From assembly GCA_024653845.1 (NCBI GenBank), contig JANLHA010000062.1, positions 1 to 14,239 on the forward strand: a stretch of 14,239 nt of DNA, written 5' to 3'. The translations under genes were made by a program, and so were the position numbers. The notes under the pieces are model-generated. The model worked only from the letters and a program-made list of their open reading frames with translations. It did not search any database and was not told where the DNA came from. Source of the stretch: Candidatus Omnitrophota bacterium (lineage in GTDB: Bacteria > Omnitrophota > Gorgyraeia > Zapsychrales > JANLHA01). This document shows, one piece after another, positions 1 to 13,394 of the stretch (position 1 is its first letter; each line of letters begins with the position of its first letter).

Positions 1-260
1 TCCAACGTTTTGATTCCTCCTCCATAGCAAAGAGGCATAAAACACTCTGTGGCAATATTCTGAATCAATTCAAAATTGGGTTCTCGTTTTTCTTTAGAAG
101 CGGAAATATCCAAAAAAATCAGCTCGTCGACTTCCTTTTCATTGAATATCTTCAAGGCATTGATCGGATCTCCTACATATTTGGAATCCGTGAATTTCAC
201 TGTTTTCACTAAACCGGCACCTTTGAGCAACAAACAAGGAATCACGCGAATATTTAACAT
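1..260 (-). CDS. HisF-like sugar-amidation subunit, second copy (WbuZ type), partial at window edge
   Basis: The reverse strand from the ATG at 260 reads open for 86 codons to the window edge, so only the N-terminal third of a roughly 250-residue protein is present. It starts MLNIRVIPCLLL and contains VDELIFLDIS and ECFMPLCYGGG, the first beta strands and a phosphate-binding-type loop of the HisF (beta/alpha)8 barrel. By hand alignment about 58 of 86 residues match the HisF-like protein at 5099-5860, yet synonymous positions differ widely, so this is not a fresh duplication. Residue 11 is Leu instead of the cyclase Asp11, as in the other copy, so a role in passing ammonia to a sugar amidotransferase is inferred rather than imidazole glycerol phosphate synthesis. 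The start overlaps the upstream glycosyltransferase stop by 7 bases (ATGTTAA), and a GAAGGG motif lies 11 bases upstream. Confidence 0.88.
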   Translation of the reverse strand, partial: MLNIRVIPCLLLKGAGLVKTVKFTDSKYVGDPINALKIFNEKEVDELIFLDISASKEKREPNFELIQNIATECFMPLCYGGGIKTL

Positions 261-1426
261 GAGAGTCTCAGCCCTTCATATATCTGCAAGAGAATTTTTT
301 CTTGCTCTTGCCAATTGAATTTTTCTGCAGCAAGCCTCAAGTCATTTTTAAAATACTCTGTGCCTTTTGCAAGGATCCGATCCATGGCTACTCTCACCGA
401 TTCACGATCATCAGATTCAATAATTTCTCCAACGGGATGTGTTGAGACAAATTGACGCATTTCCGTTCGATTAGAAACCAGAACAGGAATACCCGCTTGG
501 ATATATTCAAAGAGTTTGTTTGGCAAGCAGTAACGAAAACTCAAATTTTTATCTTCAATAAGAGCAAAACCATAATCTGCAGAACTCGTGTAGCGTAAAA
601 GATCATTAGGTTTTACGGCAGGATGAAAGAAAATATTCTGAGAGTTTTGGGACGCTCTGATGATTTCTGCTTCAAGGGGACCATAACCTAAAAAGATCAA
701 AACATATTTTTGCGGATCTAGAGATCGGAATACCTGCAATAACAGCTCGACTCCCCGACCAGATGCTAGCCCTCCTTGATAAAGAAATATTTTCTGGGAA
801 GGCTGAATCGCAAATTTTTGCCTAAACAAATCATATTTCTCTACAGAATGATATCGTGGCGGACAATTGAAAATCACATGAAGTTTTGGGATCTTATATA
901 ATTTTTCATAATCCTGGGCGATCGATTCACTCACAACTAAGATTTCATCTGCAAAACGGATCAATGTTTTCTCGATGACTTTAGCGATCAGCTTGGGAAG
1001 ACCATGCTTAGAGAATTGCTCTGTTTCATATTCATGGCAATCATAGATCAACTTTGACTTTCGATTAACAAAAATCTTATAAAAAACACCTAAAGGCAAT
1101 GCCTGAATGGCATGTGCATGAATGATGTCACAATTTCGGTATGTTGTTATTAATGCCCACATATATTGAACCAGCATTTCCGTATACATCACAATCAACT
1201 GAGCCGCGTTAGCCTTTCCTGGCTGATAACCAATCCAACGTGTCGTTTTTAATTGAAGACGATCAACTTCAATTTGCTGTATGACCTCGTGGGCAGGAAG
1301 GCCTCGTGAAGTCACAGCAAGTACACGAACGTTGTACCCGGCTTCTTTCAAACTCACAGCTTCTTTGAGAGGACGAATGTCATGCGTGAAATCATTAAGA
1401 ACTAAGAGAAGGACTTTTTTTTTCAT
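254..1426 (-). CDS. GT4-family glycosyltransferase
   Basis: This 390-residue protein looks like a GT-B fold glycosyltransferase of the GT4 group, which transfers a sugar from a nucleotide donor to the growing lipid-linked oligosaccharide on the cytoplasmic side. The N-terminal half has VLLLVLNDFTHDIRPLKEA and, near residues 100-115, the DIIHAHAIQALPLG segment typical of GT4 acceptor domains. The C-terminal donor domain has FLYQGGLASGRGVELLL, then LPNKLFEYIQAGIPVLVS, the usual nucleotide-sugar-binding region with the conserved Glu of the EX7E area. Its length is normal for the family. The start forms an ATGA overlap with the Wzx stop, and the stop overlaps the next gene, so it is translationally coupled on both sides. 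Donor and acceptor cannot be read from the sequence. Confidence 0.9.
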   Translation of the reverse strand: MKKKVLLLVLNDFTHDIRPLKEAVSLKEAGYNVRVLAVTSRGLPAHEVIQQIEVDRLQLKTTRWIGYQPGKANAAQLIVMYTEMLVQYMWALITTYRNCDIIHAHAIQALPLGVFYKIFVNRKSKLIYDCHEYETEQFSKHGLPKLIAKVIEKTLIRFADEILVVSESIAQDYEKLYKIPKLHVIFNCPPRYHSVEKYDLFRQKFAIQPSQKIFLYQGGLASGRGVELLLQVFRSLDPQKYVLIFLGYGPLEAEIIRASQNSQNIFFHPAVKPNDLLRYTSSADYGFALIEDKNLSFRYCLPNKLFEYIQAGIPVLVSNRTEMRQFVSTHPVGEIIESDDRESVRVAMDRILAKGTEYFKNDLRLAAEKFNWQEQEKILLQIYEGLRLSC

Positions 1427-2898
1427 ATCTTTATCAGATGTTGCAAATGAATTTTCTGGATGAGCTTCCTGACGTGTTCATGTGTCAAGACCTTAAGATA
1501 AAACGCTAGGGGCAAAAATAGCGAACAAAGTACGACACGAAACACAAACCCCCAAAAACTATCTAAAGGAATAAAAAACATATTGATCGCAATGATAATC
1601 CATGAAAAACAAAAACAAACCAATACAGGCTTGAATTCATAAGGAATATAAAAATGCTTTTGGGCAATCCAGAAAAGATAAACTGCTGAAATGAGATAAG
1701 AAACCATGGACGCAAAGGCGGCTCCATCCTTTCCCATCAGTGGAACCAGAATCAAATTCAATATGATATTCAATCCCGCAGCAATAAAAATGCTCAAAGC
1801 CACAGGAACGGATTTCTTAACAAACGCTGGGCCAATGGACGCAATATCTCTGATTCCAAGCAATAAGAATGAAAACGCAAGAAATGGGACGGCAGATGCC
1901 GCAGAAGAATATTCCGGAGTGGCTAAAACTTTTAAGATAAAAGAAGCGAATAAAGAACAAGCTGTACAAAAGAAACATCCTGCCCATCCATAGAGACTAA
2001 GAACCTTCGCATACACATGACCAGAAACTTCTTCTTTTTGAATGGAATAAGCAAAGGGGCTCCAAGCCATTTGAAAACCTGCCGTAAAAATCCCAACTAA
2101 CCCAGCGATATTAAACGCGACAGCATAGAGACCAATCTCCGTAGAATCATAAAAATATTTTAAAATAAAAGAATCCGAGAACATAATGATCCAAGAAGCT
2201 ACACTCGCTGGGGCAAGAGGTAAACCAAAAGCCAACATCTTTTTTAATCGTAACCAAGAAAAATATTTTAGACTCAACCAGTCTTTCATAATCCAAACCG
2301 TAGCTATCGTTGTCATTAAAGTTCCTATCAATTGCGCCCAGAAAACACCCAATAAACGCATGTTGAGAAAATAGACTAAAATGATGCTCAAGATGGCAAC
2401 TCCAAATGAGGTCATCAAGGATACAATAGAAGTTCCCCACGCGCGTCTTTGAAAAAGAAACCAACTCGTCAATACCCGGTTCGCCGTCGCAAAGAACAAA
2501 ATGAATGCCAGAATTTGAATAAGCCATTTGTATTTTGTGGTATCAAATAAAACTTCGGAAAGCCATGAAGAAAAGAAAATAATTCCAACACCAAAAAACA
2601 AACTAATCACAGATTGACACCAAAACCAACATGAAAATGTGGATTTTTGATCTTCTTGGTTTTTAGTATCATAAAACCAAACTGCCGATGAACTATCTAA
2701 TCCTGCAACAACCAACATCATAAAAAAACCTAAAAAAGCTAATAAAAGATTCATAATTCCATAATCATACGGAGTAAAAATGCGCGTATAGAATGGCAAA
2801 AGTATGGTGTTGATCACTCTAGGCTTAGAAAGCATGCCTAAGATGCCATAAATCAACGATTCCGTCACTAATTGTTTAATATGTTTAGCAAAGGTCAT
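1423..2898 (-). CDS. wzx: Wzx-type polysaccharide flippase
   Basis: This is a 491-residue, strongly hydrophobic protein with about a dozen or more predicted membrane spans throughout, the layout of the Wzx/RfbX branch of the MOP flippase superfamily. The N-terminus (SKPRVINTILLPFYTRIFTPYDYGIMNLL) is the characteristic first helix and loop of polysaccharide biosynthesis flippases. Positively charged loops separate the spans, and the C-terminus ends in a basic tail. The family moves undecaprenyl-diphosphate-linked repeat units across the inner membrane. It sits between two glycosyltransferase genes, starts one base after the preceding stop, and shares an ATGA overlap with the following gene. 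An AGGAA motif lies 12 bases before the ATG. No Wzy polymerase is seen in this window. Family assignment is secure, but substrate is unknown. Confidence 0.93.
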   Translation of the reverse strand: MTFAKHIKQLVTESLIYGILGMLSKPRVINTILLPFYTRIFTPYDYGIMNLLLAFLGFFMMLVVAGLDSSSAVWFYDTKNQEDQKSTFSCWFWCQSVISLFFGVGIIFFSSWLSEVLFDTTKYKWLIQILAFILFFATANRVLTSWFLFQRRAWGTSIVSLMTSFGVAILSIILVYFLNMRLLGVFWAQLIGTLMTTIATVWIMKDWLSLKYFSWLRLKKMLAFGLPLAPASVASWIIMFSDSFILKYFYDSTEIGLYAVAFNIAGLVGIFTAGFQMAWSPFAYSIQKEEVSGHVYAKVLSLYGWAGCFFCTACSLFASFILKVLATPEYSSAASAVPFLAFSFLLLGIRDIASIGPAFVKKSVPVALSIFIAAGLNIILNLILVPLMGKDGAAFASMVSYLISAVYLFWIAQKHFYIPYEFKPVLVCFCFSWIIIAINMFFIPLDSFWGFVFRVVLCSLFLPLAFYLKVLTHEHVRKLIQKIHLQHLIKI

Positions 2899-2899
2899 T

Positions 2900-3958
2900 T
2901 TAAACTGAGCTTCCTAGCAAATTCTTGTAAAGATCCAACAATTCATGAGCAATTTTGTGGGCGTCATGATGTTCTTCCACATACGCTCGGCTAGCCTTTC
3001 CAATTTGAGCCCGCTTTTCTCCAGAGCTTAAAAGGGTCGTCAACACTTCCACAAGGTTATCGGAATTGGCATTCACCAAGGGCAGCGAGGAAGAATATTT
3101 GGGAAGAGATGAAGGTTTAATATAACAAACAACAGGTTTTCCTAATGCCATAGCCTCGATAGCAGCCAATCCATAGGCTCCTGAAATGATTTCATCGATC
3201 ATGATGTCACACTTACCAACCCACTCTAACATTTCTTTTCTTGGCATGTTGTGAATCAATTGAAAATCAAATTCATACTTTCCTTTGAGCTGCTCGATCA
3301 CTTCTAAAATTCTTTTTGTTCCTTTGATTTCTTTACGGGAAGGTGTATGGATGATTAATGGACGCTTCTTGATCGAATCAGGAAAATTGGGAATAAAATC
3401 TGACATCAAGATACGCGCTTTGCTTCGATAAAAAGAATGGAAAATATCTTTCTGAACATACGGCTCCATTTCGACGTCGGGAATTAGACACGCAAAGCCA
3501 TATTTTGCAAAACGTTTTTGGGTATCAATGGATTTTTCTCTTCCATTAACTGCAAATTCAGGATACATCTCATACATTTTTTGAATATAAGGATTGTCTT
3601 GACAGGCAATTTCTGGAATTCGAATGTCGCTTCCCCAAAATTCCACAACGCAAGCTTTTTTCAAAGATGCTAAATATCTCAAGTCGAGCTCAAAAGGCAA
3701 AAGTCGGCTATTGAAATGCCAATGGATGACATCCGCCCAGCGCATCGCTTTTAAGATGGAATAGGTGAAAGGAATTCTCATCAACAACTTCTGCAAAGAG
3801 TTTTTCTCTTCGACGGAGAAACTTTCAATATATTGATGATCTTGCATGGGAGAATAGGTTAAAACAATTCCTCTAGCATCAACGCCGATGTCGCGTAAGG
3901 CTTTGACCGTCGTATTGACTTGAGAAGCAATGTTGTCAGGGATGTGCAAAACTTTCAT
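2900..3958 (-). CDS. GT4-like glycosyltransferase
   Basis: This 352-residue protein starts MKVLHIPDNIASQVNTTVKAL, a glycine-poor version of the GT-B N-terminal strand. It has WADVIHWHFNSRLLPFELD and VEFWGSDIR in the acceptor-side domain. The C-terminal domain has LIIHTPSRKEIKGTKRILE, then IMIDEIISGAYGLAAIEAMALGKPVV, where the two Glu residues fit the EX7E nucleotide-sugar site of GT4 enzymes. It therefore probably adds one residue of the repeat unit. It begins 13 bases after the amidotransferase stop and ends one base before wzx. No clear Shine-Dalgarno sequence precedes the ATG, so its translation may rely on coupling. The fold assignment is good, but sugar specificity is not readable. Confidence 0.87.
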   Translation of the reverse strand: MKVLHIPDNIASQVNTTVKALRDIGVDARGIVLTYSPMQDHQYIESFSVEEKNSLQKLLMRIPFTYSILKAMRWADVIHWHFNSRLLPFELDLRYLASLKKACVVEFWGSDIRIPEIACQDNPYIQKMYEMYPEFAVNGREKSIDTQKRFAKYGFACLIPDVEMEPYVQKDIFHSFYRSKARILMSDFIPNFPDSIKKRPLIIHTPSRKEIKGTKRILEVIEQLKGKYEFDFQLIHNMPRKEMLEWVGKCDIMIDEIISGAYGLAAIEAMALGKPVVCYIKPSSLPKYSSSLPLVNANSDNLVEVLTTLLSSGEKRAQIGKASRAYVEEHHDAHKIAHELLDLYKNLLGSSV

Positions 3959-3971
3959 AATTTACGAAAAT

Positions 3972-5102
3972 TTAATCTTGATATTTTCTTGTGTATTTGA
4001 GATAAAAACTTTTGGGAACCAGATTCAATCGGTACATGATCCAGAAAAGCCAACGAAAATCTTCAAATGTTTCTTTGTAAGTTTTGTAATCACGATACGT
4101 TTTAGGAGGAAGATTCATGATTCGATCAAATTCTTCATCTGTAAAGCCAAGACGCTTTTTGATTTCCTCCAAAATATCTTTGTTGAAAGGTTTTGGTTCC
4201 TGAATAAGCTTGAGCGCTTCTTCCCTGCTCATTTGTCCTGACCGAACCAATGCTGAAAATTCCGAATATCGTAAATCAATCTTGAACTTCCGCGGCAGAT
4301 AGTAATTATTGGTGAAATAAGCCGTCCGGTTCTCCATGTGATGACCGCCATACCACTTCCAATTCAATTCTCGACTCAAAAAATCTTTAACCTGATCTTT
4401 GTGATAATCAATGTAATAAAGAGGCCGCACCTTCTTAATTCCATCGATGACAGACCATTTGAGCCAAGACGATAACCAAAGGTTGGGGAAGGTTTTGATT
4501 TTATGAGAACCAAATTGCTTCTGAACCGTTTGGATGTATTTGGCATCCATATAAAACCACCCGTGGGGAGAAATGCCTTCGGTTCGAAAAGAATGTCCTT
4601 CAAAAATGTATTTGATTTTATATTTGCGAGCCGCAAGATAATGAGTAGTAGCCAAACCAATATCTGATGGTGTATCAATATCGGGGACCGACGCTTTGAA
4701 AAAAGATTTGAAAAGGTCACAAAATTCCTGGGCGTCGACCACGTGAGTATACAAATCAATATTCAACTTATTCAAAACATTATAAATGTTCTCAACAGCA
4801 ATTTTAGAATTCCAAGTGTTGTCAAAATGAGCCGCTAAAGGCCGAAGTCCTAATTCCTTGGCCAAGTGCAATAAATAAGAAGAATCCGTCCCCCCACTGA
4901 CACCCACAACCACATCATATTTGAGGTGACGACCTTCATGCTTAATTTTCTTAGCCAAGGCTTCCAAAATAGCGCGGCCTTTTTCTCCGGTCGGATATTC
5001 TTGATCAAGTTGTTCATGTTGGCGGCAATAATTACAAACTCCTTCAGAGTCAAAAGAGATATATGGGATGTGGTCATCGTAAATACACCTTGAGCAGATC
5101 AT
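3972..5102 (-). CDS. wbpG: N-acetyl sugar amidotransferase (WbuX/WbpG/PseA family)
   Basis: This is the 376-residue PP-loop ATPase that uses ATP and ammonia to convert a sugar N-acetyl group to an acetamidino group. It has the family's N-terminal cysteine quartet (C3, C6, C23, C26, in CSRCIYDD and CNYC), likely a metal site. A PP-loop SGGTDSS follows at residues 69-75 in VVVGVSGGTDSSYLLHLAKE, and then FEGHSFRTEGISPHGW. Known relatives act on ManNAc(3NAc)A in Pseudomonas O-antigen (WbpG) and on pseudaminic or legionaminic acid (PseA and relatives). The start makes an ATGA overlap with the HisF-like gene and has GGAGAAGG 7 bases upstream, so its ammonia-supplying partner is translationally coupled to it. 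No NeuB-type nonulosonate synthase or UDP-sugar 6-dehydrogenase is present here, so the acceptor sugar is unknown. Confidence 0.93.
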   Translation of the reverse strand: MICSRCIYDDHIPYISFDSEGVCNYCRQHEQLDQEYPTGEKGRAILEALAKKIKHEGRHLKYDVVVGVSGGTDSSYLLHLAKELGLRPLAAHFDNTWNSKIAVENIYNVLNKLNIDLYTHVVDAQEFCDLFKSFFKASVPDIDTPSDIGLATTHYLAARKYKIKYIFEGHSFRTEGISPHGWFYMDAKYIQTVQKQFGSHKIKTFPNLWLSSWLKWSVIDGIKKVRPLYYIDYHKDQVKDFLSRELNWKWYGGHHMENRTAYFTNNYYLPRKFKIDLRYSEFSALVRSGQMSREEALKLIQEPKPFNKDILEEIKKRLGFTDEEFDRIMNLPPKTYRDYKTYKETFEDFRWLFWIMYRLNLVPKSFYLKYTRKYQD

Positions 5103-5860
5103 GTGAGCACCTTCTCCAATTTTTCGCGATTGGGAAAGTTGATTAAGACACCCAAATCTTTTCCTTGATAAACAACCATACTGCCTGCAGCCACTGCGGA
5201 AGCTCCACCCTCTTTAACAGCACGTCCAAAATCATCAACAGATCCTGCACCTCCACAAGCAATCACGGGGATTTGAACACTTGCAGAAATCATTCGTATC
5301 AAATCAAGATCATAACCGTTCCATGTTCCATCACGATCAATCGAATTCAAAAAAATTTCACCTGCTCCCATCTCTGCCATTTTCTGAACGTGCTCAATCG
5401 CAGACAAATTCACGGGTTTCTGCCCACCATGAGAACAAACCATATATTTCCCCCAAATGTTCTTCTTAACATCCACTGCGACCACAATGCTTTGACTGCC
5501 AAAGGATATCGCTGCCTCTTTAATCAACGACGGGTTCTCAATCGCATAGGTATTGATCGCAACTTTTTCGATCCCAAGTGTGAACAATTTCTGCAGATCT
5601 TCCATCGACCGGACACCTCCCCCATAAGTCAATGGCATAAAGCACTCTTCAGCAATTTCTGATAAAAGTTCAAATGAGGGGTTTCGATTTTTAGAAGTGG
5701 CCGTGATATCCAAAACAATAAGCTCATCCACTTCTTTCTCATTGTAAATCTTAATGGCATTAATCGGGTTCCCTACGTAAGACGGATTCTTAAACTTAAC
5801 CGTCTTAACCAATCGGCCATCTTGGAGTAATAAACATGGGATAACTCTGATGTTTAGCAT
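5099..5860 (-). CDS. wbuZ: HisF-like ammonia-channelling barrel subunit (WbuZ type)
   Basis: This complete 253-residue (beta/alpha)8 barrel is of the HisF family. It retains the barrel landmarks YGGGVRSM (79-86), VVAVDVKK (126-133), FLNSIDRDGT (170-179) and ACGGAGS (201-207). The general acid/base Asp130 is present, but the other cyclase catalytic residue, Asp11, is Leu (IPCLLLQDG). It is therefore unlikely to cyclise the histidine intermediate. Its expected job is to dock HisH and pass ammonia to the PP-loop sugar amidotransferase, whose gene overlaps its stop by ATGA. The WbuZ group of sugar-locus HisF paralogues is known to occur with a HisH homologue and a WbuX-type enzyme, as here. It starts 26 bases after the radical SAM gene without an obvious Shine-Dalgarno motif. 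A related copy lies at the left edge of the window. Confidence 0.92.
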   Translation of the reverse strand: MLNIRVIPCLLLQDGRLVKTVKFKNPSYVGNPINAIKIYNEKEVDELIVLDITATSKNRNPSFELLSEIAEECFMPLTYGGGVRSMEDLQKLFTLGIEKVAINTYAIENPSLIKEAAISFGSQSIVVAVDVKKNIWGKYMVCSHGGQKPVNLSAIEHVQKMAEMGAGEIFLNSIDRDGTWNGYDLDLIRMISASVQIPVIACGGAGSVDDFGRAVKEGGASAVAAGSMVVYQGKDLGVLINFPNREKLEKVLT

Positions 5861-5886
5861 TTTGTAAGATGATAAAGCAAGCTATA

Positions 5887-6915
5887 TCAATTGGCAGGAA
5901 CTGTTGAGACATGCTCATATATCTTGGCAAGGCCGCTGTATGTAACTTTCATATCCTTACCTTTGATGATTCTTGAATTTTCAACAAAAACCTTTTTCCA
6001 GGCATCACATTTATAACAAGCAGATTTTGGATGGAATTCTTTCTTAAGTGCAGCAAGTCTTAATTGAGAATACGATTTCCCCTTCCAAATGGCTCGAACA
6101 CCTTTCTTATGAACATTCCCCATAAAATTTCGGCCGGCAATATCATCACAACAAGTCGTCACATCTCCATTCCACAAAATGGCCATATAGAAAAAAGGAT
6201 TTGAACAAAAATTCCTTTGTATCGTAGGTTGATCAAAAAAATTCTCGGGCTGCAAGATCTCCAAATCTTCAGTTTCATATGGATAAATACAAACTTGACT
6301 CACTCGTTTGACCCAATAATTGATGAATTCTTCAATTTCCTGATCAGTATGATTAGACACCGTCAAATTGACACTGAGATTTAATTTAGATCCATGTTGA
6401 TTACGTGCTTCCAATAAATGGATAATGTTCGCTTCGACTTTCTCAAAATTGGAATGCACTCGGATAGCCTCATGTTTTTCTCTAAGTCCATCTAAACTGA
6501 TTGAAATTCTATCAACTTGAGTCTTCATAATCGTAGAGATGACTTCTGAATTCAAAAGAAGTCCGTTGGTATGGAAACCCAAATTAAATTTTTTTAAAGA
6601 GGCTGCATATTCCAGCATCTTACAGAATTCAGGATGAATAAGACCTTCTCCACCAAAATTAAGTCCCAAACTGATTCGATGGGGCAATTGAGCTAGTTCA
6701 TCTATAATATTCTTATACTCCTCCCACTTCATATAACCTTTTTTTCTCACAGGATATAATGAAGGACATTGAGAATTGCAAATTGTACATCGAAGATTAC
6801 AAACGTTGGTTGGTTCAATGGCAACGGCTTTTAAAGGAGGAGGAACATGTTTAACCACGCCTGGAAAAGCTGGCAATATTCTTTGTGCTAAATTCATCAA
6901 TGATCCTTTTTTCAT
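5887..6915 (-). CDS. Radical SAM enzyme with SPASM-like C-terminus, inside the amidation module
   Basis: This 342-residue protein has the radical SAM cluster motif CX3CX2C at C39, C43 and C46 (NVCNLRCTIC), with a fourth nearby cysteine at C50. It has a GGE-type SAM-binding stretch in LNFGGEGLIHPEF (around residue 88) and a ISLDGL strand at 138-144. The C-terminal region has C237 in FCSNP, C255-C256 in GDVTTCCDD, GNV with AIW, then C300 and C303 in CYKC. That is the ordering of SPASM/twitch auxiliary iron-sulfur domains, but with few cysteines, so probably one auxiliary cluster. The substrate is unknown. Its position between the HisH-like and HisF-like genes suggests it acts on the same sugar or its nucleotide-linked form. 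The ATG at 6915 is chosen because GGGAGGG lies 8 bases before it. An in-frame ATG at 6897 is the alternative. Confidence 0.88.
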   Translation of the reverse strand: MKKGSLMNLAQRILPAFPGVVKHVPPPLKAVAIEPTNVCNLRCTICNSQCPSLYPVRKKGYMKWEEYKNIIDELAQLPHRISLGLNFGGEGLIHPEFCKMLEYAASLKKFNLGFHTNGLLLNSEVISTIMKTQVDRISISLDGLREKHEAIRVHSNFEKVEANIIHLLEARNQHGSKLNLSVNLTVSNHTDQEIEEFINYWVKRVSQVCIYPYETEDLEILQPENFFDQPTIQRNFCSNPFFYMAILWNGDVTTCCDDIAGRNFMGNVHKKGVRAIWKGKSYSQLRLAALKKEFHPKSACYKCDAWKKVFVENSRIIKGKDMKVTYSGLAKIYEHVSTVPAN

Positions 6916-6919
6916 CTAT

Positions 6920-7549
6920 TTATCCCTCCCTAATATTTTCAATAAAATTTCTTAAAACATTCATTCCATACTTATGACTTTTCTCGGGATGGAATTGGAC
7001 TCCATAAATATTATTTTTCTCAATCGAGGATACAAAATCGTAACCATAATTTGTAACCGTCAAAATGTCTTGAGGCTCTGCGCATTTGAGATGATAAGAA
7101 TGAACAAAATAAAAACGCTGTTCTTCTTCCGGGCGAGGGAATATAGCACTATTTTTGTTAACCGAGACCTGATTCCATCCCATATGGGGAATTTTGAGAT
7201 ATTTCATGCTTTCATCAAATTTAAATTTCACAGTTGCAGCATTAATCCATCCAAGGCCCTTCAACTGTCCCTCTTCACTTTTCTGGGAGAACAATTGCAT
7301 TCCCAAACAAATCCCTAAGATAGGAACGCGGCCATGCAATACTCTTTCCTCAAGAATAGGCAACAGAGCTCGATCTTGCAAATTACGCATCCCATAATCG
7401 AAAGCCCCAACGCCCGCCAAAATCAACCGATCAGCTTTTCTGATCTCTTCGCTATCTCTAGAAATTTTTGAAGGAAATCCAAGATATTTCAGCATATTCT
7501 GAATGGATCCCAAATTCCCCATACCATAATCAATGATCACAATATTCAT
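6920..7549 (-). CDS. hisH: HisH-like glutamine amidotransferase subunit (WbuY type)
   Basis: This 209-residue class I glutaminase hydrolyses glutamine and hands ammonia to its HisF-like partner. The catalytic triad is intact: Cys81 in LGICLGMQLF, and His187 and Glu189 in VQFHPEKS. GMGNLGSI (9-16) and GWNQV (124-128) are also family landmarks. The usual oxyanion-strand PGVG reads AGVG here (LAGVGAFDYGM). Because it lies with a HisF-like gene and a PP-loop sugar amidotransferase, with no other his genes, its role is inferred to be sugar amidation. The ATG at 7549 gives the standard MNIVIIDYG start and has AAAGG 12 bases upstream. A TTG three codons earlier would have only 3 bases of spacing. 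The stop lies 4 bases before the next start. Confidence 0.92.
   Translation of the reverse strand: MNIVIIDYGMGNLGSIQNMLKYLGFPSKISRDSEEIRKADRLILAGVGAFDYGMRNLQDRALLPILEERVLHGRVPILGICLGMQLFSQKSEEGQLKGLGWINAATVKFKFDESMKYLKIPHMGWNQVSVNKNSAIFPRPEEEQRFYFVHSYHLKCAEPQDILTVTNYGYDFVSSIEKNNIYGVQFHPEKSHKYGMNVLRNFIENIREG
6924..6931 (-). promoter_or_regulatory. Shine-Dalgarno site deciding the start of the second radical SAM gene
   Basis: The reverse strand reads AGGGAGGG here, ending 8 bases before the ATG at 6915 and lying over the last codons of the HisH-like gene. It favours 6915 over the in-frame ATG at 6897. Confidence 0.8.
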
Positions 7550-7571
7550 GTTATACAAAAACCTTTATAAA

Positions 7572-8105
7572 TTATTTTCTCTTTCGAAGGATTTGAGCGG
7601 GAACACCTGCAACAACATGATAAGAAGGAACGTCTTTGGTCACAACCGATCCAGCCCCAATGATAGCACCCTCTCCAATTTTGACTCCTGGCAAAATGAT
7701 CGCTCCTGTTCCAATATCCGCGCCATCTTCAATGATCACTTTCCCAAATGCCAAATCATTACTCATCACTGGTTTATCGAGCGGTCCGTCTTGGTGTGTG
7801 GATGTAAGAATTTTAACCATTGGACCTATTCCCACAGCTTTGCCGATCTCGATGCCACCAGCGCTGTGAAAGAAGCATCCTTGACCAATCCAGGTATGAT
7901 TTCCAATCACCATTTCGTTTTTATGATAGGCTTTCAAAATCGTATTGTGGCCAATATAAATATTCTCACCTAATCTAATATTATTAGCATGAAAGACAAG
8001 CACTCCTTTTTCAAAAACAATATTCTTGCCGATTTCCCTAAAATCTCTTCTAAGAAATTTACCACTCCCATGGGTCAAATATTTTTTCTGAAAACGAATA
8101 TCCAT
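7572..8105 (-). CDS. Left-handed beta-helix (hexapeptide) acyltransferase
   Basis: This 177-residue protein has regular [LIV]-G-x-x-x-x hexapeptide repeats ([68 protein letters not shown]). It ends in the common [16 protein letters not shown] tail of WbbJ/LacA/Maa-type O- or N-acyltransferases. His104 in ILTSTHQDG is the likely catalytic base by family position. It probably acylates, most often acetylates, a sugar hydroxyl or the amino group installed by the upstream aminotransferase. If the latter, it would make the N-acetyl group that the amidotransferase later modifies. It lacks the N-terminal Rossmann-like domain of PglD-type enzymes. It follows the first radical SAM gene by 17 bases and precedes the HisH-like gene by 22. 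The Shine-Dalgarno region is weak (GGTG 8 bases upstream). Confidence 0.9.
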
Positions 8106-8122
8106 ACCATTAGCACCAATTG

Positions 8123-9163
8123 TTAAAGTCCTAGCTTCTTAACTGCCTCATAATTCTTCTTGTTCCGACCGCTCCACGTTGTCAAATAACCGCATCCATT
8201 ACAAATGCCATAGTCTCCAGAGATATGTCGTTGGCGAACATACGCCAGCTTTTTCAATAACTTTTGAGAATCATCTGTAATCTTTCCTAAACATAGGCCA
8301 TCATCTCTTTTGGTCCACACCCCCAGACAACACGGAAAAACATATCCATCAATATCAACCATCATGGTATTCCAAAGTTGACTACAGGGATGTTTTTCAC
8401 CTTGCTTAGGAGACCAATCTGTCAAAGGCATATATTTCTCAATCAAAAGTCTGTCGGTCTCTCTTAATAATGGATTCCAGCGTTTCACAATCTCAGAATA
8501 TTTTTGAGCCGTTAAATCTTTATCAAAAACATGGATGGTCACACGTGGAGTACGTTCTCCTCTTAAAGCTAAAAAATTTCTTATATTTTCAACAACCGTA
8601 TCATATTTCTCAACACCCACCAAATTATTGAAAGTTTCTCTATCATCAAAACACAAGCTAAGAACAATACTATCGACTTCGCTACCTGCTAATCTTTCCG
8701 CAATCTTTCCTTTTAAAACGATACAGTTTGAATTTGCGTGAATGTGGGCCTTCGGAAAAACTTGTCTAGCGTAAGCCACAATATCAAAAAAGCTCGGATT
8801 AAGTAATGGCTCTCCCAATCCCACAGGAGAAAATTGGATTCGTTCTTCCGGAACATTTTGCTGGCGGGTTAATTCTCTGACTTTGTCGATCACATTTTTA
8901 ACCTGTTCAAACTCCATATGTTTCACAGGTTTCACGCCGGATTTGGTTACTGTTTCCCTTGTACAAAAACTACATTTTGCATTGCAATAAGTGGTGATTT
9001 CAACATTAATATCGGTTGGATAATTTGTAGGTACAGGGATCGGTTCCAAATATAAAGAGTTAGACTGAATGATGGTATGTAACCAATAATTACTTCTTAC
9101 AAGTCTTCCCAATCTTTTTATCAGTTTCTGCCCTATTGTTCTTTTTGGGGCTAATTTGATCAT
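8123..9163 (-). CDS. Radical SAM enzyme with SPASM-like C-terminus, coupled to the aminotransferase
   Basis: This 346-residue protein has the radical SAM motif CX3CX2C at C60, C64 and C67 ([14 protein letters not shown]). A GGEP-like element, [11 protein letters not shown], sits at 113-123 and a ANSNC strand near 143-147. The C-terminal part carries C260 in HPCSQLW, C278-C279 in [11 protein letters not shown]291, then C321 and C324 in [10 protein letters not shown]. That is SPASM/twitch-like spacing for an auxiliary iron-sulfur cluster. A basic N-terminal stretch of about 50 residues precedes the core. The substrate is not recognised. The start overlaps the aminotransferase stop as ATGA with GGAGG 9 bases upstream, so the two are made together. 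A step on the sugar nucleotide (dehydrogenation, epimerisation or deamination, as radical SAM enzymes do on aminosugars) is a reasonable inference, but peptide modification is not excluded. Confidence 0.87.
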
Positions 9164-10284
9164 GAATTTATACCTCCAAGAGATAATTCCAATTTTCTGA
9201 TGACATGTTTAATGTCTTTTTCATTCAGAGCAAAATGCATAGGCAAAGCCAACCCTTGCGTATAGGCTTCTCTGGCATTCAGGAAATCTCTTTCCTTTAG
9301 TTTATACCTTTTCTGATAATAAGACAAACATGGTAAGGCCTGGGCTCCAAGGTTAGCTTCAATCCCTTGATCTCTCAATTTCTGGATCAACGCATCCCGA
9401 GAAACATTTTGATTAAGCATCACATGATAAGTTTGATAAACATTCTTTCGATTCTGAATCGACAAAGGCGTTTTAATCCAACTTATTCCAGCCAATCCTT
9501 GATCATACGCTTTTGCCAACGCTACTCGAGCTTTCAACATTTTTTCCAGATGAGCCATTTGAGATAGCCCCAAAGCCGCCTGGAAGTCCGTCATCCGATA
9601 ATTAAGGCCAGCATAATCAAAGTCCATTTTGCCATTTTTCACACAGATTCCATGGCTTCTCAAAGACCGAAGCTTCTCCGCCATGGCCACATCATCTGTG
9701 ACAAGAAGTCCACCCTCTCCCGTCGTCAAAATTTTACGGGGATGAAAACTGAAACATCCGATTTTCCCGAAAGTCCCGACCATTTGATTTCCAAATTTTG
9801 CACCTAACGCACACGCAGCATCCTCAACCACAGTAATATTTCTTTTTTTTGCGACCGACATGATTTTTTTAATATCCGCCGGTTGACCAAATTCATGAAC
9901 AGGAATGATCGCTTTGGTTCTTTTGGAAATGCATTTTTCAATTTTTCTCACATCCATACAAAAATCGTCTAAAGCAATATCTACAAAAACAGGTTTGGCT
10001 TTGACCAGTTCAACAACATTGGCCGTTGCCGGGAATGTAAAGGCAGGAACAATGACTTCATCTCCTTCTTTGATATCAAGAGCTAAAAGAGCCAGATGCA
10101 AAGCTGCAGTTCCGGAAGACACAAGAATGGCATGTCGCGTACCGAGATATTTTTGCAAAGCCAGTTCAAATTTTTTGACAACCTCGCCCTGGACAAGATT
10201 CCCAGATTTTAGAACTTTCTGGACTTCTTTGATTCCGCTTGAAGGAATATATGGTTTGGATAATTTGATTTTGAGTGGTTTCAT
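9160..10284 (-). CDS. DegT/DnrJ/EryC1/StrS-family sugar aminotransferase
   Basis: This 374-residue PLP enzyme should transfer an amino group, usually from glutamate, to a keto sugar nucleotide. Landmarks are SSGTAALHLALLAL (56-69), VIVPAFTFPATAN (77-89), VVEDAACALGA (152-162; Asp155 pairs with the PLP ring nitrogen), and FSFHPRKILTTGEGG, where Lys184 is the Schiff-base lysine. An FDYAGLNYRMTDFQAALGL block typical of the family follows. The ATG at 10284 gives the normal MKPLKIKLSKPYIPSSG start and lies one base after the preceding stop. An upstream in-frame start at 10344 would add 20 atypical residues inside the preceding gene. Pairing with an SDR epimerase/dehydratase is the classic arrangement for 4-amino (or 3-amino) sugar synthesis. 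The carbon position aminated cannot be read directly. Confidence 0.93.
   Translation of the reverse strand: MKPLKIKLSKPYIPSSGIKEVQKVLKSGNLVQGEVVKKFELALQKYLGTRHAILVSSGTAALHLALLALDIKEGDEVIVPAFTFPATANVVELVKAKPVFVDIALDDFCMDVRKIEKCISKRTKAIIPVHEFGQPADIKKIMSVAKKRNITVVEDAACALGAKFGNQMVGTFGKIGCFSFHPRKILTTGEGGLLVTDDVAMAEKLRSLRSHGICVKNGKMDFDYAGLNYRMTDFQAALGLSQMAHLEKMLKARVALAKAYDQGLAGISWIKTPLSIQNRKNVYQTYHVMLNQNVSRDALIQKLRDQGIEANLGAQALPCLSYYQKRYKLKERDFLNAREAYTQGLALPMHFALNEKDIKHVIRKLELSLGGINS
9173..9177 (-). promoter_or_regulatory. Shine-Dalgarno site of the first radical SAM gene
   Basis: The reverse strand reads GGAGG, 9 bases before the ATG at 9163. It sits inside the 3' end of the aminotransferase gene, so this ATGA junction has its own ribosome site as well as stop/start coupling. 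Confidence 0.75.
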
Positions 10285-10285
10285 T

Positions 10286-11233
10286 TTATTTTTGAATCCA
10301 TTTTGCCGTCTCGAGAATTCCTTCATCCAAATCCACCTTGGCACGGAATCCCAGAAATTGATCAGCTTTTTCTACGGATGGCACTCGTAATTCAATCTCG
10401 GCTGAAAGTGCCGGCTTAAAAAGAATTTTGGATTGAGAAGACAAAACCCGACATACCGTCTGGGCCAATCCATAGGTTGTTGAGACAGCTCTTGCGTTGC
10501 CAATATTGAAAGACTCACCAATCGCTCTAGGGTTTTCCATGCACTCCATCAAGCAATCGACAAAATCATTTACATAACACCATGCACGAATCTGACTTCC
10601 ATCCCCGTGGATGTGAATGTCTTCATTTTTCAAGGCCCTTCGAATAAATACCAAAATCGCGCCTTCTCCGGTTTGGCCTGGACCGTAAACGTTAAACGGT
10701 CTGACAGACACTGTTGGCAGTCCAAATTCTCGATGATACGCCGTGGCCAAATGTTCTCCAGCTAATTTGCTCACCGCATAAGTCCACCTGGCCTCGCCAG
10801 CGCTCCCCGCAACCGTATCACTACTTTCCGTTGGTTTAAAAGCGTGACTGCCAAAAACTTCAGAAGTCGAAAAATCCACCACACGATCTTTCACGCCATT
10901 TTGCTTGGCAGCTTCTAAAACATTGGCCGTCCCAATCATATTAACTCGCATGGTCTCCGTCGGACTTTTGATCACGGTATCAATTCCCGCAATGGCTGCC
11001 GCATGAACCACAATATCGATTCCCTTCATACTCTTGAGCAACTTTTCATTATCCAAAACATCCCCCTTAATAATGGTAATATTGGGATGTTTCGCGTAAG
11101 GACTCGACGAAAGCGTATCTCTTCGAAAATTGTCATAAACAATAATCTTATTATTTTCGACCATGCGTCCGATCACACAGTTAGCAATAAATCCCGCTCC
11201 ACCGGTAATAAAGATAGTTTTATTCTTAATCAT
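10286..11233 (-). CDS. Extended-SDR NAD-dependent sugar epimerase/dehydratase
   Basis: This 315-residue nucleotide-sugar enzyme has an N-terminal Rossmann dinucleotide site [12 protein letters not shown] (7-18). The third Gly of GxxGxxG is Ala17. It continues with [11 protein letters not shown], then STSEVFG (122-128), and the catalytic pair YAVSK (Tyr152, Lys156). [11 protein letters not shown] and [18 protein letters not shown] are the substrate-domain signatures of UDP-glucose 4-epimerase and 4,6-dehydratase relatives. The SE pair in STSEVFG resembles 4,6-dehydratases such as LegB, but the sequence alone does not separate dehydratase from 4-epimerase. The next gene, an aminotransferase, would use a keto sugar, which slightly favours dehydratase. 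GAGGAG lies 9 bases before the ATG. The 44-base gap upstream is the largest in the window and shows no promoter-like element. Confidence 0.9.
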
Positions 11234-11277: not shown

Positions 11278-12345
11278 CTATCCTAAGATTTTCTTTAAAA
11301 CCTCAACCATTTCTTCCGCCGCACGGCCATCGCCAAAAAAACTTTTCGGCTTTTTTCGAGGCGCTGTTTTCTTAATGGCTTTCAAAATCTTTTCTTGCGA
11401 TACTCCCGCTAATGTATTGCATCCATCATTCAATGTTTCTTTCCACTCCGTCTCGTTTCGCAAGGTAATGCATGGCACATTCAAGAAGTAAGCTTCCTTT
11501 TGTACACCTCCCGAGTCCGTCAAAATCTTTTTTGCATTTTTCTCCAGAATGAGCATATCCAAATAACCAACCGGCGAAATGAATAAAATATTGGGCAAAT
11601 TTTCTGGCTTAAAATCCTTTAAAGTCTTCAACATCTTCTGTGTTCGAGGATGAACCGGAAAAACCACGCTATCCTTAATCTTGCCTAATGCCAACAAAAT
11701 GGATTTCAAGTTTTCAATATTATCCGCATTGTCTTGACGGTGAATAGTTAAAAGATAGTATCCTTTGGGCTTCACACCGTTTTTCTTTAAGATATTAGAA
11801 TGGCCCACTGAAATGTTCTGCTTAAAAACATCGTACATCACATCCCCGACAAAAAACACATTCTTCGTAATCCCTTCTCGCTTGAGATTATCAACGGCTG
11901 CTTTCGTCGGACAAAATAATAAATTGGACATATGATCCGTCAGAACCCGATTGACCTCCTCAGGCATATCCAGACGATAACTCCTTAACCCAGCTTCAAC
12001 GTGTCCGAGGGGAATTTTCTGATGAACAGAGGCAAGGGCTCCAGCCATGGTTGATGTGGTGTCTCCGTAGACCAAAACCATGTCGGGCCTTTCTTTTTTC
12101 AAAATACCTTCCAATCCCTGAAGAATCAATGCCGTTTGCTGAGTTGATGTTTGACCTTTAACATTCAAATGATAATCCGGCTTTGGAATGTTCAATTGCT
12201 GGAAAAAAATCTTCGACATTTCGTAATCATAATGCTGCCCTGTATGTAACAAAATGTGCTGGATTCGATTTCTTCGAAAACTCTCGATGACCGGTTTCAC
12301 CTTAATAAATTGCGGCCTGGCTCCGACAATGCTCAAAACTTTCAT
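11278..12345 (-). CDS. wecB: Non-hydrolysing UDP-HexNAc 2-epimerase (WecB/WbpI family)
   Basis: This 355-residue GT-B fold enzyme interconverts UDP-GlcNAc-type and UDP-ManNAc-type sugars at C2. The key acids match E. coli WecB numbering: Asp95 in LVYGDTTST and Glu117 in GHVEAGLRS, with Glu130 in MPEEVNR and the catalytic-loop His202 in LLTIHRQDN. The N-terminal SIVGARPQFIK and the TDSGGVQKEA motif near residue 290 are also standard. HRQDN replaces the common HRREN. Family relatives act on UDP-GlcNAc (WecB) or on 2,3-diacetamido uronic acids (WbpI), and this one could be either. It begins in an ATGA overlap with the DUF354 stop, with GAAGGA about 9 bases upstream. Length is normal. The presence of a 2-epimerase suggests a manno-configured amino sugar in the polymer. 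Confidence 0.93.
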   Translation of the reverse strand: MKVLSIVGARPQFIKVKPVIESFRRNRIQHILLHTGQHYDYEMSKIFFQQLNIPKPDYHLNVKGQTSTQQTALILQGLEGILKKERPDMVLVYGDTTSTMAGALASVHQKIPLGHVEAGLRSYRLDMPEEVNRVLTDHMSNLLFCPTKAAVDNLKREGITKNVFFVGDVMYDVFKQNISVGHSNILKKNGVKPKGYYLLTIHRQDNADNIENLKSILLALGKIKDSVVFPVHPRTQKMLKTLKDFKPENLPNILFISPVGYLDMLILEKNAKKILTDSGGVQKEAYFLNVPCITLRNETEWKETLNDGCNTLAGVSQEKILKAIKKTAPRKKPKSFFGDGRAAEEMVEVLKKILG

Positions 12346-13394
12346 ACCGTCGATTCCTTCTTCTGATAACTTAAGATCCGATCAACCATCCAATCGGTCA
12401 CATCAATTTTGTCTTTCAAAAGTTCTTCCCGCTTTTTTTGCCAATCTTGTTTCAAAGCCAGATTTTTGAGAAGCTCTTTCATTTTCGCCAAAGCCTGAGC
12501 AAAATCCCGGAAAGAATAAATCAAATCATATTTTCTCTCCAGCTCAATAAAATTCCCCATATCGTTGGGCCCTACAAAAGAATTGTAACGGATGGCTGGC
12601 GTTCCTAAAAGTGCCGCTTCCGTCGTAACCGTCTGAGAATCCGTGATGAGTAGGGTGGCATAATAAAGAATATCTAACAATCGATGCGGTGAAATTCGAA
12701 TCCGATAAGGCTCCAACTCTTTTTCTAAAGGCTTTTCAGATGTGATAAAAACCTTTCCTTCTTTTTGAAGAAGAGACAGCAGTTCCAATTTCTGGTTCAG
12801 ATTAAAGCCATACCGACCCACATCATGACTCGCCGACCAGGCAACAAATCGACATACAAAGAATTTCTCTCCCGCTTTAACTCCGAGTTCATTCAGCACC
12901 TCCGGGTCGGGCTGGAAACGTTTGGGATGCAAATAAGCAAGTTCATGATACCCTGCATACTTGACATGTTTTTTCCCATGATGGAGGTGATAACTTTCGG
13001 GAGTATAAATTTTAGTGGCAAAAGGATAGGTTAAAGCATTTTGCAATTCTGCACTCTCAGAATCATGAAAAATGAGATAAGGAATTCCCATCAAACGTGC
13101 AATGTGAATCGAGCTGGCCCCAGTCACAGAAATACAAAGTTGAATTTTATTTTTTAAAAGAATTGGAATCAATTTCAACTGCCGGACAATCAATTCTTTT
13201 CCTAACCCGAGGATGCCTTTTCCGGCTTTGCTGAGGAGGAGATAAGGCAATTGATAATATTGAAGAAGCTGAGTGGTTACCTCTTTCTCTCTCGAGGCAA
13301 TAACGATGTGATGGCCCTGTTTCGATAATTCTTGGATGGCATTTCGAAAAAGATGAACATGCGCGGGGTGATTCATGTCAAAGAGGATGTTCAT
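12342..13394 (-). CDS. DUF354-family GT-B-like protein
   Basis: This 350-residue protein belongs to the DUF354 group, distant relatives of UDP-GlcNAc 2-epimerases and GT-B glycosyltransferases. The sequence starts MNILFDMNHPAHVHLFRNAI, the diagnostic N-terminal strand and DxxHPAHVH motif. It has ISVTGASSIHIARLMGIPYL near residue 90, FVCRFVAWSASHDVG near 185-198, and LITDSQTVTTEAALLGTPAIRY near residue 265, the sugar-nucleotide-binding side. It is probably a glycosyltransferase or sugar-nucleotide enzyme, but the family has no single established reaction, so none is claimed. The gene is locked by ATGA overlaps to the GT2 upstream and the 2-epimerase downstream, which points to a shared pathway. 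Length is typical. Confidence 0.85.
   Translation of the reverse strand: MNILFDMNHPAHVHLFRNAIQELSKQGHHIVIASREKEVTTQLLQYYQLPYLLLSKAGKGILGLGKELIVRQLKLIPILLKNKIQLCISVTGASSIHIARLMGIPYLIFHDSESAELQNALTYPFATKIYTPESYHLHHGKKHVKYAGYHELAYLHPKRFQPDPEVLNELGVKAGEKFFVCRFVAWSASHDVGRYGFNLNQKLELLSLLQKEGKVFITSEKPLEKELEPYRIRISPHRLLDILYYATLLITDSQTVTTEAALLGTPAIRYNSFVGPNDMGNFIELERKYDLIYSFRDFAQALAKMKELLKNLALKQDWQKKREELLKDKIDVTDWMVDRILSYQKKESTV

Follow-up and report, generated by a model that had tools for sequence, protein, structure and literature searches.

Why does a radical S-adenosylmethionine (SAM) gene stand inside a sugar amidation module? The question is raised by contig JANLHA010000062.1 of a Candidatus Omnitrophota bacterium (assembly GCA_024653845.1). 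Its 14,239 nucleotides are the window analyzed here; in our labels it is contig C75 of the 2.07-Mb metagenome-assembled genome G000, which is 87% complete. The gene, termed rSAM2 (5887..6915, minus strand, 342 residues, ATG start), lies between the genes for a HisH-like glutamine amidotransferase assigned to ammonia supply (6920..7558, minus strand) and a HisF2/AglZ-type sugar amidation subunit (5099..5860, minus strand). The latter is followed by a WbuX-type PP-loop N-acetyl sugar amidotransferase (3972..5102, minus strand). A sequence-only reading of the window had reported this arrangement, and its coordinates and order are exact. The HisH-rSAM2 gap is 4 bases (6916-6919), the rSAM2-HisF gap is 26 bases (5861-5886), and HisF and WbuX overlap by 4 bases. 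The identities given to the three partners were also correct, each scoring above a curated cut-off: HisH with TIGR01855 (234.7 bits, cut-off 105.4), HisF with NF038364 AglZ/HisF2 (370.1 bits, cut-off 310), and WbuX with TIGR03573 (243.2 bits, cut-off 203.2). Our answer, to which we assign a probability of about 0.6, is that rSAM2, as a twitch enzyme of the BtrN type, modifies a sugar in the glycan made by the locus, and that its spot inside the HisH-HisF-WbuX trio is a happenstance of gene order.

The protein matches two Pfam models above cut-off, Radical_SAM (PF04055, 65.5 bits, cut-off 29.5) and SPASM (PF13186, 48.9 bits). The radical SAM motif CX3CX2C is formed by C39, C43, and C46 in the PF04055 domain. 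Outside this core, the only cysteines invariant in 17 aligned sequences are C237, C255, C256, C300, and C303. As a prediction from these residues, the set fits a twitch domain with one cluster and not a two-cluster SPASM domain. The 17 aligned sequences show no additional conserved cysteines that could ligate a second auxiliary cluster of the type present in SuiB, PqqE, or anSME. The label "SPASM-type" given earlier is therefore accurate as far as the PF13186 match goes, which persists despite the one-cluster cysteine set, but it is too broad. rSAM2 is not a chance open reading frame, because the motifs are retained in relatives of 35-49% identity wherever the fragments cover them and because the AlphaFold2 model is confident (mean predicted local distance difference test score, pLDDT, of 89.5).

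Among enzymes of solved structure, the closest is BtrN, the 2-deoxy-scyllo-inosamine dehydrogenase of butirosin (PDB 4m7s/4m7t). The profile of the 17 aligned sequences ranked BtrN first among solved chains (E 1.3e-22; next 3.7e-17). An auxiliary-domain profile of 25 sequences, one from the window and 24 from wider members, gave BtrN at E 1.8e-15 and SuiB next at 0.2. Foldseek with the rSAM2 model returned BtrN (1.3e-12), an aminocyclitol enzyme, and then DesII (5.6e-11), a sugar enzyme; the Foldseek and VIA-align lists served to exclude no family. BtrN shares the CX3CX2C core, and its C169-C187-C232-C235 align with C237-C255-C300-C303 of rSAM2 at identical spacing. The most fitting description of rSAM2 is a BtrN-type twitch enzyme with one predicted four-cysteine auxiliary cluster. 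It differs from BtrN in several respects. The identity is 16%, BtrN has about 250 residues instead of 342, Phe188 of BtrN is found where rSAM2 has Cys256, and BtrN belongs to an antibiotic locus whereas rSAM2 belongs to a glycan locus. No NCBIfam model scored above cut-off among the 25 of 61 listed for rSAM2, and the top score was that of N_Twi_rSAM (105.5 of 170 bits). A metalloenzyme or tungsten-cofactor maturase was considered and rejected, the scores of TIGR04317 (105.2 of 380 bits) and TIGR04311 (91.6 of 400) being read as the shared core domain.

The sequence-only reading had taken the position of the gene to imply a step linked to amidation, and had proposed to look for the same order beside HisH, HisF, and WbuX homologues in other genomes; homologues lying mostly apart from amidation genes would, by its own standard, refute the link. 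The relatives examined do not bear the link out and show that refuting outcome, since almost all of them lie in sugar clusters without those partners. Two close relatives have readable surroundings. One is from Planctomycetota (50% identity, genome G404; 16 kb as L005, 20 kb as L157) and the other from Omnitrophota ("Omnitrophica WOR_2", 46%, genome G159; L006 on MHHG01000043.1, a 36-kb contig covered in full by L088 and L089). Near the L005 gene are glycosyltransferases, a flippase-type protein, and two methyltransferases, along with an asparagine-synthase-like amidotransferase and a further radical SAM gene. The neighbours in L006 include DUF354, a short-chain dehydrogenase/reductase (SDR), DegT, hexapeptide acetyltransferases, an asparagine-synthase-like protein, and a Wzx homologue. 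L006 also has a 41% relative of rSAM1, the second radical SAM gene of the window, and a third radical SAM gene besides. In the stretches read, no HisH, HisF, or WbuX gene is near either relative. The G404 genome has no HisF2 (best E 7.8e-4). G159 does have an unbroken WbuX-HisH-HisF trio, with a HisF below the AglZ cut-off, on a different contig from its rSAM2 relative.

Wider relatives, at about 30% identity, were collected with a cut of E 1e-40. At most five candidates per genome were scored, so that absence is not proof. Matches at this level or better are present in 81 of 384 sampled Omnitrophota genomes, the window's genome included. The 118 matches consist of 2 close ones (G000 and G159), 8 wider ones that were not included, and 108 in 100 stretches, which reach about 7 kb per side for the first 40 and 4 kb for the next 60, less at contig ends. 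HisH and HisF were each found in 0 of these 100 neighbourhoods, and WbuX in two (L202 and L203, both above the TIGR03573 cut-off and within 4 kb). We tallied the 73 immediate same-strand genes of at least 100 residues around the best rSAM2-like gene of each of the first 40 stretches (L104-L143). They comprise 14 Radical_SAM, 7 DegT, 7 CTP_transf_3, and 3 NeuB proteins, together with glycosyltransferases and hexapeptide transferases. Sugar loci of Omnitrophota often stack several radical enzymes. The same 73 neighbours also contain B12-binding (4) and HMPTM zinc-ribbon (3) domains. The 294 Planctomycetota genomes gave one wider relative beyond G404 (G680, 226.6 bits), with no HisH, HisF, or WbuX in the 16 kb read around it, and a scan of viral contigs gave a single distant relative (L017, 33%). 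Outside the 100 neighbourhoods, a Lachnospiraceae stretch (L008:7695-12780) encodes an SDR, DegT, an rSAM2-like protein (29%), WbuX, and a cytidylyltransferase consecutively, with no HisH or HisF; the auxiliary domain of this rSAM2-like protein ends early.

The genes flanking rSAM2 are members of the WbuX/HisH/HisF2 (WbpG, AglZ) module, and this module differs from the others read in its inserted radical SAM gene. Among the genomes of the order, 12 of 81 have an AglZ-type HisF above cut-off; for the phylum the figure is 11 of 368. The window's genome is counted in both. Besides the window, 17 stretches hold 19 HisF/WbuX modules, some with a HisF below the AglZ cut-off, and these were sorted into classes by reading. 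Eleven are unbroken trios, four are HisF-WbuX pairs without an adjoining HisH (L093, L095, L098, L156), and four are interrupted. In L102 a methyltransferase gene separates HisF from HisH, and in L094 one separates WbuX from HisF. L100 is broken by genes for an acetyltransferase and a protein lacking a Pfam match, and L103 by about 0.7 kb in which no long open reading frame is present. A radical SAM gene is inside none of the 19 modules read. As the trio is broken elsewhere by unrelated genes, location inside it is weak evidence for a shared step. One stretch, L156, carries a 27% relative at its edge, seven genes ahead of HisF.

The locus itself holds a further HisF-WbuX pair. The start of a second HisF is found at 3..260 (minus strand), where contig C198 joins the window end through a 43-base exact overlap; C198 completes this HisF and then encodes a second WbuX (L087:3-1639). 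No second HisH is beside this pair in the readable part of the locus and C198, which suggests that adjacency of HisH and HisF is not required. The single HisH could serve both amidotransferases of the locus. No radical SAM step in a sugar amidation pathway was found in the literature, within the part of it that was covered. Of the earlier interpretation, the notion of an enzyme that acts on a sugar probably stands, and the amidation partnership is not supported.

The companion gene of rSAM2 is rSAM1 (8123..9163, minus strand), rather than HisH or HisF. Only seven rSAM1 relatives were present in the protein collection at E 1e-20. In the 384-genome sample of the phylum, scored with the same limit on candidates, rSAM1 was found in G000 and G159 only. 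Close rSAM2 relatives occur in the same 2 of 384 genomes (E 1.6e-148 and 1.8e-155), after which the values drop to 1.5e-63. The chance of agreeing on the second genome is estimated at about 1/383, for a cut that was chosen after the gap had been seen and with few candidates scored per genome. In G159 the two relatives share a contig and are about 7 kb apart. The auxiliary cysteine pattern of rSAM1 is similar to that of rSAM2, extra cysteine included. Its model (mean pLDDT 83.8) has DesII as the closest solved fold by Foldseek, and its sequence profile is only weakly tied to BtrN (2.3e-5), which ranks after NifB (1.4e-6).

Most likely rSAM2 is a sugar-modifying enzyme independent of amidation, with BtrN-like chemistry in which a hydrogen is removed from a sugar carbon for epimerisation or oxidation. 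According to PMC9012708, enzymes of the radical SAM class cleave SAM to give a 5'-deoxyadenosyl radical, and BtrN carries out a two-electron oxidation of its substrate in which one electron probably passes to the auxiliary cluster. In rSAM2, SAM would be reductively cleaved at the C39/C43/C46 cluster, and the resulting 5'-deoxyadenosyl radical would attack a sugar carbon that bears OH or N and remove a hydrogen from it. Exchange of the second electron would fall to the auxiliary cluster of C237/C255/C300/C303. If a hydrogen from C256 quenches the carbon radical on the other face, the enzyme would be an epimerase, as are NeoN and HygY. If the carbon radical is instead oxidised to a ketone, it would be a dehydrogenase, as is BtrN. 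NeoN and HygY, the epimerases of neomycin and hygromycin sugars, are set beside rSAM2 by analogy of work, a radical on a sugar carbon. In NeoN, Cys249 donates the hydrogen that completes epimerisation (PMC10991966); HygY is termed a twitch enzyme, the class given here to rSAM2. We lean slightly to an epimerase over a dehydrogenase, about 45 to 35, with the remainder for other reactions. In HygY, changing one cysteine reportedly switches the epimerase to a dehydrogenase (cited in PMC10991966). Given the genes of the locus for a 2-epimerase, an SDR resembling a dehydratase, an aminotransferase, and an acetyltransferase, the substrate of rSAM2 is probably an amino sugar, in the form of a nucleotide sugar, a lipid-linked unit, or the polymer.

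A Cys occupies position 256 in each of the 16 core rows with coverage there (a further 3 are gapped), in 8 of 8 rSAM1 rows, and in 40 of 71 wider rows. The invariance of C256, next to the predicted auxiliary ligand C255, hints at epimerisation with this residue as a putative hydrogen donor. The ketone product of BtrN presumably passes to a DegT aminotransferase, and from BtrN we predicted that members without Cys256 would make ketones for DegT. In the first 40 stretches, DegT adjoins 1 of 26 Cys256 members versus 8 of 28 others (p 0.025). The count in the 60 new stretches was 1/34 versus 7/31 (p 0.023; two proteins without a ligand cysteine skipped), and an alternative alignment gave 1/26 versus 8/30 (p 0.029). 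Over all scored wider relatives, 17 of 119 are directly beside DegT.

Several findings weigh against our reading. The association of Cys256 with DegT ranks 11th over 242 testable columns. Its p value at the level of clusters is 0.32, 0.11, and 0.03 at 35, 40, and 50% identity, not above the clade background. A CC pair is also common in such auxiliary domains, which weakens the argument for C256 as a donor. We do not claim Cys256 as a marker of epimerase versus dehydrogenase, since the column and cluster controls did not single it out. G404, the Planctomycetota genome, carries rSAM2 but lacks rSAM1; its locus does include a different radical SAM gene. Lastly, WbuX directly follows the relative in L008 and is also near wider relatives in L202 and L203.

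This last point agrees with a different view, in which rSAM2 acts in a coupled step on the sugar that is amidated and its gene is for that reason held between HisH and HisF. The tight spacing and the one-strand operon are also consistent with such coupling, and the sugar may indeed be the same if the enzymes of the locus feed one glycan. However, amidation genes are near 0 of the 2 close relatives with readable context, and G159 retains its unbroken trio on a separate contig, apart from rSAM2. The wider neighbourhoods (HisH 0/100, HisF 0/100, WbuX 2/100) and the other modules (radical SAM gene in 0/19, something else interrupting 4/19) argue in the same direction, so we consider a coupled step improbable. 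A DesII-like lyase, which would deaminate or deoxygenate an amino sugar made by the DegT aminotransferase of the locus, is hardly better placed. DesII (dTDP-4-amino-4,6-dideoxyglucose ammonia-lyase; PDB 8hzv/8hzy) is a radical SAM enzyme of sugar nucleotides, second in Foldseek for rSAM2 and first for rSAM1; rSAM1 comes directly after DegT, and the DegT adjacency of wider relatives given above also suits a lyase. rSAM2 itself, however, does not adjoin DegT here or in L005 and L006. DesII is longer (about 470 residues), its model TIGR04426 is matched weakly by rSAM1, at 21.3 bits against a cut-off of 450, and is absent from the 25 of 61 families listed for rSAM2, and a net-neutral elimination would need no BtrN-type auxiliary cluster.

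The third possibility is that rSAM2 is a maturase of ribosomally synthesized and post-translationally modified peptides (SuiB-like), or an anSME-like protein maturase, that is in the glycan locus by chance. The single-sequence search and VIA-align fail to separate such an enzyme from a BtrN-type one. The auxiliary-domain profile does separate them (BtrN 1.8e-15, SuiB 0.2), and the invariant cysteines suffice for only one auxiliary cluster, with one cysteine to spare. None of the listed NCBIfam models is above cut-off, and both close relatives are in glycan loci. The sequence-only reading had named a nearby precursor peptide, with a structure of the peptide-modifying type, as a sign that would speak against its proposal. 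The widest intergenic gap of the operon is 44 bases, which leaves no room for a precursor gene, and BtrN is closest by profile. An unlinked precursor could exist, and we regard a maturase as very unlikely.

For rSAM2 as a BtrN-type sugar enzyme, the larger point is a predicted family of such enzymes in the sugar loci of Omnitrophota. Antibiotic pathways are the main known setting of BtrN-type radical chemistry on sugars. If the family acts on surface glycans, many anaerobes would gain an oxygen-sensitive route to the inversion or oxidation of sugars at unactivated carbons, and sugars would arise that ordinary epimerases do not produce. The family is found widely across one phylum, its members are small enough for expression and assay, and residue 256 (Cys or not) would offer a one-residue discriminator between the two reactions. 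A bolder version, doubtful but worth stating, pairs rSAM1 with rSAM2 as cysteine-quenched twitch epimerases that would act by inversion at ring carbons of an acetamidino sugar in a surface glycan, as part of a large putative glycan-tailoring family in Omnitrophota. No BtrN-type family of sugar loci is described in the titles and abstract openings of the literature searched (including PMC2147049, PMC9012708, PMC10991966, PMC8326336, and PMC11002830), which is no proof of novelty.

All main genes of the glycan locus are on the minus strand. In gene order, a GT2 gene is followed by a DUF354 protein (12342..13394; PF04007), which we take to be glycosyltransferase-like, and by a WecB-type UDP-GlcNAc 2-epimerase (11278..12345; TIGR00236, 334.1 bits, cut-off 210). 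The next gene encodes the SDR, an NAD-dependent sugar dehydratase/epimerase (10286..11233; PF01370, 187.6 bits), for which the dTDP-glucose dehydratase and LegB models are below cut-off. The DegT-family sugar aminotransferase (9160..10344; PF01041, 383.4 bits) has PseC as its closest model (TIGR03588, 329.8 bits, below the cut-off of 423.5). Between rSAM1 and HisH lies a left-handed beta-helix (hexapeptide) acetyltransferase (7572..8105; PF00132, 44 bits). After HisH, rSAM2, HisF, and WbuX come a glycosyltransferase (2900..3958; PF00534), a Wzx-type flippase labelled by eye from sequence (1423..2898), another glycosyltransferase, and the start of the second HisF. A 28% homologue of the glycosyltransferase at 2900..3958 immediately precedes the rSAM2 relative in L006. 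On C198, the second WbuX is followed by an asparagine-synthase-like amidotransferase (L087:1652-3478; TIGR01536, 473 bits), and the loci of the two close rSAM2 relatives contain asparagine-synthase-like genes too (L005:5272-6699 and L006:5260-7152).
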